Shown piece by piece: positions 30,008 to 30,415 of a stretch of DNA of 64,000 bases; positions within the stretch are counted from its first letter, which is position 1, and every line of letters starts with the position of its first letter. Under the pieces are notes generated by a model. The model did no database searches. It saw only the letters and a list, made by a program, of their open reading frames with translations, and was not told where the DNA came from. The position numbers and the translations under genes were made by a program. The stretch spans positions 124,001-188,000 of the forward strand of contig NZ_JADWYM010000005.1 in NCBI RefSeq assembly GCF_022414535.1, given 5' to 3'. Source of the DNA: Streptomyces sp. MUM 2J. Its GTDB lineage: Bacteria > Actinomycetota > Actinomycetes > Streptomycetales > Streptomycetaceae.

Positions 30008-30415
30008 TTAACGATGCTTCGGTTTCTCCTTGATCTTCGCGGCCTTGCCGCGGAGCTCACGGAGGTAGTACAGCTTGGCGCGGCGCACGTTGCCGCGGGT
30101 GACCAGCTCGATCTTCTCGACGATCGGGGTGTGCACCGGGAAGGTGCGCTCGACGCCGATGGAGAAGGAGACCTTGCGGACCGTGAAGGTCTCGCGGACA
30201 CCAGCGCCCTGGCGGCGGATCACAACGCCCTTGAACTGCTGCACACGGGAGCGGTTGCCCTCGATGACGCGGACGTGGACGTTGACGGTGTCACCTGGGC
30301 GGAAGGCCGGGACATCGGTGCGCAGTGACGCGGCCTCGACCGCCGCCATCAAGTGTCCGGCACTTGCCTTGCGCGGAGGTGTTGCCCCTGGAGAATGCGG
30401 GATGCCGTTCGGCAC
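30008..30415 (-). CDS. rplS: Second ribosomal protein L19 carried by AICE-2
   Basis: From residue 24 on, the protein is an almost canonical streptomycete L19 (AASLRTDVPAFRPGDTVNVHV, KGVVIRRQGAGVRETFTVRK, AKLYYLRELRGKAAKIKEK). L19 sits at the 30S-50S interface of the ribosome. The usual Met-Ser start is replaced: the aligned residues are AG, and the frame begins 22 residues earlier at a GTG with AAGGAAGG upstream, giving MPNGIPHSPGATPPRKASAG. The tail ends KPKHR instead of the usual short acidic end. The gene lies inside a mobile element, 27 bases after a membrane-protein gene, so it is an extra copy and not the housekeeping one. Confidence 0.85.
   Translation of the reverse strand: MPNGIPHSPGATPPRKASAGHLMAAVEAASLRTDVPAFRPGDTVNVHVRVIEGNRSRVQQFKGVVIRRQGAGVRETFTVRKVSFSIGVERTFPVHTPIVEKIELVTRGNVRRAKLYYLRELRGKAAKIKEKPKHR

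Follow-up and report, generated by a model that had tools for sequence, protein, structure and literature searches.

We found that a 64,000-nucleotide stretch of the Streptomyces sp. MUM 2J genome (the window) contains, besides the housekeeping gene elsewhere in this genome, another gene for ribosomal protein bL19, located inside an integrated AICE directly behind a gene for a predicted membrane protein. We tentatively favor, with a confidence only a little short of even, the reading that both genes form a two-gene cargo module of this AICE and that the extended bL19 would enter part of the host 50S subunits in place of the housekeeping L19, thereby changing the behavior of these ribosomes through its ends. 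The two genes are:

30008-30415, minus strand: N-terminally extended bL19 paralogue, intact ORF of 135 aa with a GTG start
30443-30979, minus strand: predicted membrane protein of 178 aa, small unnamed family; the gene ends 27 nt before the start of the L19 copy

The Ribosomal_L19 domain of the L19 copy is complete (residues 22-131; Pfam PF01245, E 9e-49), and the protein passes the NCBIfam rplS_bact equivalog model TIGR01024 with 157.4 bits (cut-off 90.7). In the PDB, its top match by sequence is the bL19 of entry 9qt5. At the start of the gene lies TTTAAGGAAGGTCCAGTG, which includes a likely ribosome-binding site ahead of the GTG. The window, S. aurantiogriseus, and Streptomyces sp. BK340, the three loci read, do not differ in this sequence, and this identity makes the GTG the likely start of the L19 copy. 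The GC3 value is 0.84 for the L19 copy, 0.91 for the housekeeping rplS, and 0.59 for the first 22 codons of the copy.

The first-pass annotation had regarded the gene as an additional L19 copy. This holds, since a separate rplS is present on another contig of the same genome (G000:C23:47536-47910), encoding a protein 82% identical to the AICE copy. This second gene is embedded in the ORF order rimM-trmD-rplS-lepB (named by the look of the ORFs); the L19 copy is located within the AICE, away from trmD and outside such a rimM-trmD-rplS context. Its close relatives are the housekeeping L19 proteins of Streptomyces, and the best matches of the L19 proteins of this genus are Streptomyces records. 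Compared to the housekeeping L19 of its own genome, the copy differs at only 3 of the 96 residues between positions 36 and 131 (93/96 kept), but at 8 of the 16 residues between positions 20 and 35. The middle of L19 is the part that contacts the rRNA, and a conserved middle with differing ends is what would be expected if the L19 copy must still fit its rRNA site. The altered ends described initially are indeed found: the normal Met-Ser is lost, and the C-terminal tail is basic, with PKHR in place of the REN of the housekeeping protein. An N-terminal extension likewise exists, but its length had been given as 22 residues, a value obtained only by counting to the internal Met23; in the alignment, Met1 of the housekeeping protein is placed opposite Ala19 of the copy, resulting in an extension of 18 residues. 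The same annotation proposed a spare against an attack on the host L19. We found nothing for or against this idea, and with the middle nearly unchanged (93/96) such a protection would rest mainly on the two ends.

The L19 copy is located close to attR, within an exact 50-bp direct repeat that also encloses AICE core genes, which confirms its initial description as AICE cargo. We applied the criteria for pSAM2-type AICEs as given in the excerpted text of PMC3218068. The element contains a site-specific integrase, RepSA, an FtsK/SpoIIIE-type transfer protein, and att direct repeats, one of them at a tRNA 3' end. Based on this gene content, it is an integrated AICE that is predicted to transfer between Streptomyces-like bacteria. 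Its parts are:

16039-16088, plus strand: attL, exact 50-bp repeat at the 3' part of tRNA-Gly (16013-16086)
16446-17633, minus strand: tyrosine integrase of the AICE (Phage_integrase, E 5.3e-11; start chosen by us)
17633-17845, minus strand: excisionase-like ORF of 70 aa, so called by the look of the ORF alone
17842-19416, minus strand: RepSA (pSAM2-type) replication initiator (PF20199, E 9.1e-151)
20153-20800, minus strand: DUF2637 protein (domain match), which we take to be a spread-type protein
21088-22581, minus strand: FtsK/SpoIIIE-type Tra protein (PF01580, E 7e-33)
23455-24183: second GntR regulator (domain match)
24991-25731, minus strand: GntR/UTRA regulator (domain match)
26887-31728, no strand assigned: cargo module, near-identical in S. 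aurantiogriseus
27166-28905, minus strand: AAA_16 ATPase ORF (Pfam), also present in S. aurantiogriseus
28815-29396, minus strand: HEPN-like ORF (weak PADLOC HEPN_IX match, E 0.0011), also present in S. aurantiogriseus
29727-31523, minus strand: minimal module common to Streptomyces sp. BK340 (about 89-90% identity)
31493-31523, minus strand: 31-nt sequence, present twice around the BK340 module and once in the MUM 2J genome
31679-31728, plus strand: attR, where the exact 50-bp repeat recurs

A second AICE-like set with genes for a serine integrase, RepSA, and an FtsK-type protein is located at 1706-7759, and Rfam did not confirm a tRNA-Arg called at 5757-5852. A 43-nt direct repeat (86%) occurs at 29531-29573 and 29887-29929. 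Two Streptomyces plasmids match positions 29505-29681 at 82%; in NBC_00873, the match is located upstream of genes annotated as MazE7 and Doc.

The pair of membrane-protein gene and L19 copy is present in three genomes, MUM 2J, S. aurantiogriseus, and Streptomyces sp. BK340, each of which also contains a separate rplS. Other AICEs with an L19 copy were to be looked for according to the first-pass annotation, and one was found: S. aurantiogriseus harbors a similar AICE between tRNA-type repeats. Positions 26887-31806 of the window are 99.2% identical in this species, compared to only 80.6-84.2% for pieces of the AICE backbone, indicating that the module moves between AICEs. An integrase-like ORF (L032 7573-7938; 121 aa in the stretch read) is located just past attR in S. 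aurantiogriseus and suggests tandem AICEs at the tRNA. BK340 shares only positions 29727-31523 of the window, a stretch that covers both genes of the pair with their flanks, at 89-90% identity. The BK340 module resides on a contig of 9661 nt, and the AICE context was read in the window and in S. aurantiogriseus alone. It is flanked by two copies of a 40-nt repeat that are 88% alike. A 31-nt pattern derived from this repeat occurs once in the S. aurantiogriseus genome and is absent from the genome G104 (see below).

The HEPN-like ORF overlaps the AAA_16 ATPase ORF (27166-29396; GC3 of the ATPase 0.58), and the two look like a candidate defense pair, the HEPN_IX match being weak. Both proteins have 99% matches in S. 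aurantiogriseus, and neither has a match in the whole BK340 genome or in G104. The BK340 match to the window stops before this pair, and the BK340 contig ends 443 nt later. Since both proteins are missing from the BK340 genome, we treated the pair as separable from the L19 module.

The gap of 27 nt between the membrane-protein gene and the L19 copy is retained in the window, S. aurantiogriseus, and BK340. The L19 copy had earlier been suggested to act as a partner of neighboring cargo. This suggestion stands in part: a link is likely for the predicted membrane-protein gene, judging from its position 27 nt upstream in all three loci read. The 178-aa protein contains three long hydrophobic stretches in a simple hydropathy scan, and its structural model is all-helical (mean pLDDT 86.6). 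Twelve relatives were retrieved from 5.8 billion proteins, among them P0122, P0123 in S. pristinaespiralis, and P0125 in S. lunaelactis, and a YR.HQ.WG motif is present in all 13 sequences; the L19 neighbor could be checked for one of the 12, that of BK340. No match to the protein was found in Pfam, PADLOC, NCBIfam, or PHROGs, in plasmid or phage collections, or, at E <= 0.001, by Foldseek in the PDB or viral models. Among 392 same-genus genomes and 395 relatives (overlapping samples), it occurs only in its own genome. With no recognized fold match, it is connected to ribosomes by gene order only. A viral contig (L047 9995-10543) encodes a distant relative with 30% identity, downstream of a repressor-like ORF.

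Upstream of the two genes, one block is particularly well conserved:

31053-31172, minus strand: upstream block, identical to BK340 at 118 of 120 alignment columns (coordinates derived from this alignment)

Between the window and BK340, this block is more alike than the two genes themselves (about 94%), and it is possibly a leader or a promoter. At gathering cut-offs, Rfam detected only the tRNA and assigned no family to the block. A permissive Rfam scan of the upstream region gave four matches, all below the gathering scores of their families, and a scan of positions 29300-31760 found no sigma-70-type promoter (0.4 expected by chance).

We next consider whether the L19 copy could be a hitchhiker of the AICE, either neutral or in decay. 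Many AICE cargo genes are likely pseudogenes according to the excerpted text of PMC9513070, and the module is rare. But the copy is intact in the three loci and in the database protein P0001, and its likely ribosome-binding site is conserved. Moreover, between the window and BK340 the L19 gene shows 22 nucleotide differences that change only 7 residues over 127 codons, compared to 14.4 expected, and none of 2000 simulations gave a value as low. The neutral expectation was derived by random placement of the same number of nucleotide changes in 2000 runs. For the membrane protein, 31 nucleotide differences change 14 residues (21.8 expected; 1/2000 as low). The NG86 dN/dS values for the same comparison are 0.032/0.146 for L19 and 0.040/0.135 for the membrane protein, and the gap in the extension is in frame, spanning 8 codons. 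Both genes are therefore under purifying selection between the window and BK340, the one divergent pair on which this test is based; the window and S. aurantiogriseus are nearly identical, and their L19 genes differ at 2 bases only. We consequently regard a hitchhiker as very improbable. Purifying selection on the L19 copy would follow equally from a non-ribosomal role.

A second, more divergent type of extended L19 was found in the same-genus genome G104. This extra protein is about 200 residues long, of which roughly 85 make up the extension; P0133, a database protein sourced from JGI, is a relative of it. Its gene follows a 96-aa ORF and a gene for a predicted membrane protein (DUF6313, E 3.2e-8). 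The three genes form a 1.8-kb cassette (L053 7430-9233) between 131-nt inverted repeats that are 93% complementary. Genes for an HTH-M78 peptidase and a protein kinase are located nearby. The model of the second-type protein is poor (mean pLDDT 60.6), with helices at 4-57, a linker, and the L19 core, and its extension has no match in plasmids. We also considered that such repeat-bracketed cassettes of membrane protein and extended L19 may represent a class that moves between AICE backbones, in which L19 would replace that of the host in ribosomes and, through its new end, couple them to the membrane partner, so that the element would control part of the host translation. This broader proposal appears doubtful to us.

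The AICE type and the second type share 15-18 of 19 residues in the junction and first helix, compared to 69-73 of 97 in the remainder. None of the 64 tabulated housekeeping L19 loci contains the junction motif; these comprise the best-scoring loci of the genus and phylum samples and a small number of further ones, and at least two genomes entered the count twice. Both observations, together with the partner gene present in the loci read, argue against a functional spare, namely a plain backup or additional dose of L19 that is carried along and whose end changes have no special meaning. The closeness of the copy to Streptomyces housekeeping L19 and its score above the rplS equivalog cut-off would fit such a backup, but overall we consider it quite improbable. 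A 37-row DNA tree groups the three AICE-type copies together (100/100) within the Streptomyces rplS genes and apart from the housekeeping gene of MUM 2J; 20 of the 33 inner branches of this tree are weakly supported. In a tree of the protein core, the AICE type falls among the Streptomyces rows, as in the DNA tree, and the second type branches outside of them. A single clade of all five extended L19s was not rejected (p-AU 0.188). Thus, either the two types acquired or retained their ends in parallel, or, given common descent, one of them later had its core replaced through recombination.

Additional L19 copies were seldom encountered in the samples searched. Two L19 matches were found in 2 of 392 same-genus genomes, MUM 2J and G104, and none in G050. 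In the phylum sample of 396 genomes, 376 gave an L19 match and 20 gave none; three rows had two matches, namely MUM 2J, G727 (contamination 5), and G754, whose best E is only 5e-26 and which may represent a split gene. At most 10 L19 candidates per genome were scored in the 392-genome sample and at most 8 in the 396-genome sample, which means that distant additional copies may have gone unnoticed. An exact DNA pattern for GH[LI]MA[AS]V[DE]A, which matches the copies of BK340, S. aurantiogriseus, and G104, occurs in 1 of 394 family genomes, that of MUM 2J; the genus, phylum, and family samples overlap. The narrower pattern HLMAAVEAA gave 8 stretches in genome_contigs, and tblastn on all 8 confirmed two, from S. 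aurantiogriseus and BK340. One scan of viral_contigs revealed no confirmed relative of the L19 copy. L19 matches occur in 61 plasmid and 14 phage records, none with at least 80% identity among the matches listed (40 of the 61 and all 14).

The preferred explanation, partial replacement of the host L19, can be broken down into a series of steps. The membrane-protein gene and the L19 copy would be cotranscribed. The L19 copy would dock on 23S rRNA via its conserved middle, offering new ends, and would enter some ribosomes, replacing the host L19 there. The new ends would act at the subunit interface, where they could shift decoding or the response to drugs. Together with the membrane protein, the copy might serve a joint task, for example tuning translation for the benefit of the element or under translation-targeting stress. 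L19 and L14 contact the 16S helices h8 and h14, forming bridge B8, and disruption of B8 raises miscoding (PMC6379664, as excerpted); a 2007 study cited in that paper deals, judging by its title, with interactions of S12, L14, and L19. A phage-encoded bS21 entered E. coli ribosomes, and these ribosomes made about 5% of the control protein in vitro (excerpted text of PMC6375957). This low output indicates that a foreign ribosomal protein may simply be harmful.

Alternatively, the L19 copy might act away from the ribosome, as a soluble partner for the membrane protein; the L19 fold with its new ends would then be an adaptor, or the antidote in a toxin-antitoxin or exclusion-type pair. The gene order and the 27-nt gap are constant in the three loci, a gene for a predicted membrane protein likewise precedes the second-type L19 in G104, a repressor-like ORF is found near the gene for the distant membrane-protein homologue in the viral contig, and the differences in L19 are concentrated at its ends, all of which would agree with such a function. 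But a middle kept at 93/96 is more than a freed adaptor seems to need, and the membrane protein lacks any match in Pfam, PADLOC, NCBIfam, or PHROGs. We therefore consider an off-ribosome role rather unlikely and retain the partial replacement of the host L19 as our preferred explanation. If correct, a conjugative-type element with its own bridge protein would demonstrate horizontal exchange of ribosome composition between close relatives. Mass spectrometry can distinguish the two L19 proteins, which have different N and C termini.

To our knowledge, ribosomal proteins on mobile elements have been described mainly from viruses. No report of an L19 paralogue on a mobile element was found among the matches listed in a search of openly licensed literature (titles and starts of abstracts), which is weak evidence of absence. 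The main text of the AICE-cargo paper PMC9513070 contains no word beginning with "ribosomal", and that of the AICE paper PMC3218068 does not contain "ribosomal protein". Like bL19 proteins in general (TIGR01024/PF01245), the window copy has the complete L19 domain (residues 22-131), but it differs by the 18-residue extension, the loss of Met-Ser, the basic tail, the lack of a trmD neighbor, and its location on a mobile element. The element itself has the tyrosine integrase, RepSA, FtsK-type Tra, and tRNA att repeats of pSAM2-type AICEs and differs in that its cargo includes a ribosomal protein. According to the excerpted text of PMC10931766, bL31B under Zur control is also a paralogue that may displace a housekeeping protein. 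But bL31B is the zinc-free counterpart of a zinc protein and less than 40% identical to it, whereas the window L19 is 82% identical to its housekeeping counterpart and neither of these two contains a cysteine; they do not represent a zinc-ribbon protein and its Zur-controlled zinc-free form. The closest parallel in terms of mobility is provided by virus-encoded ribosomal proteins (Mizuno et al. 2019; PMC6375957). In its main text, the string L19 is absent, and 10 further proteins are named only in the supplement, where bL19 may be among them. As in the cases described there, a ribosomal protein is carried by a mobile element under purifying selection, but the carrier of the window copy is an AICE instead of a virus, and the gene is paired with that of a membrane protein.
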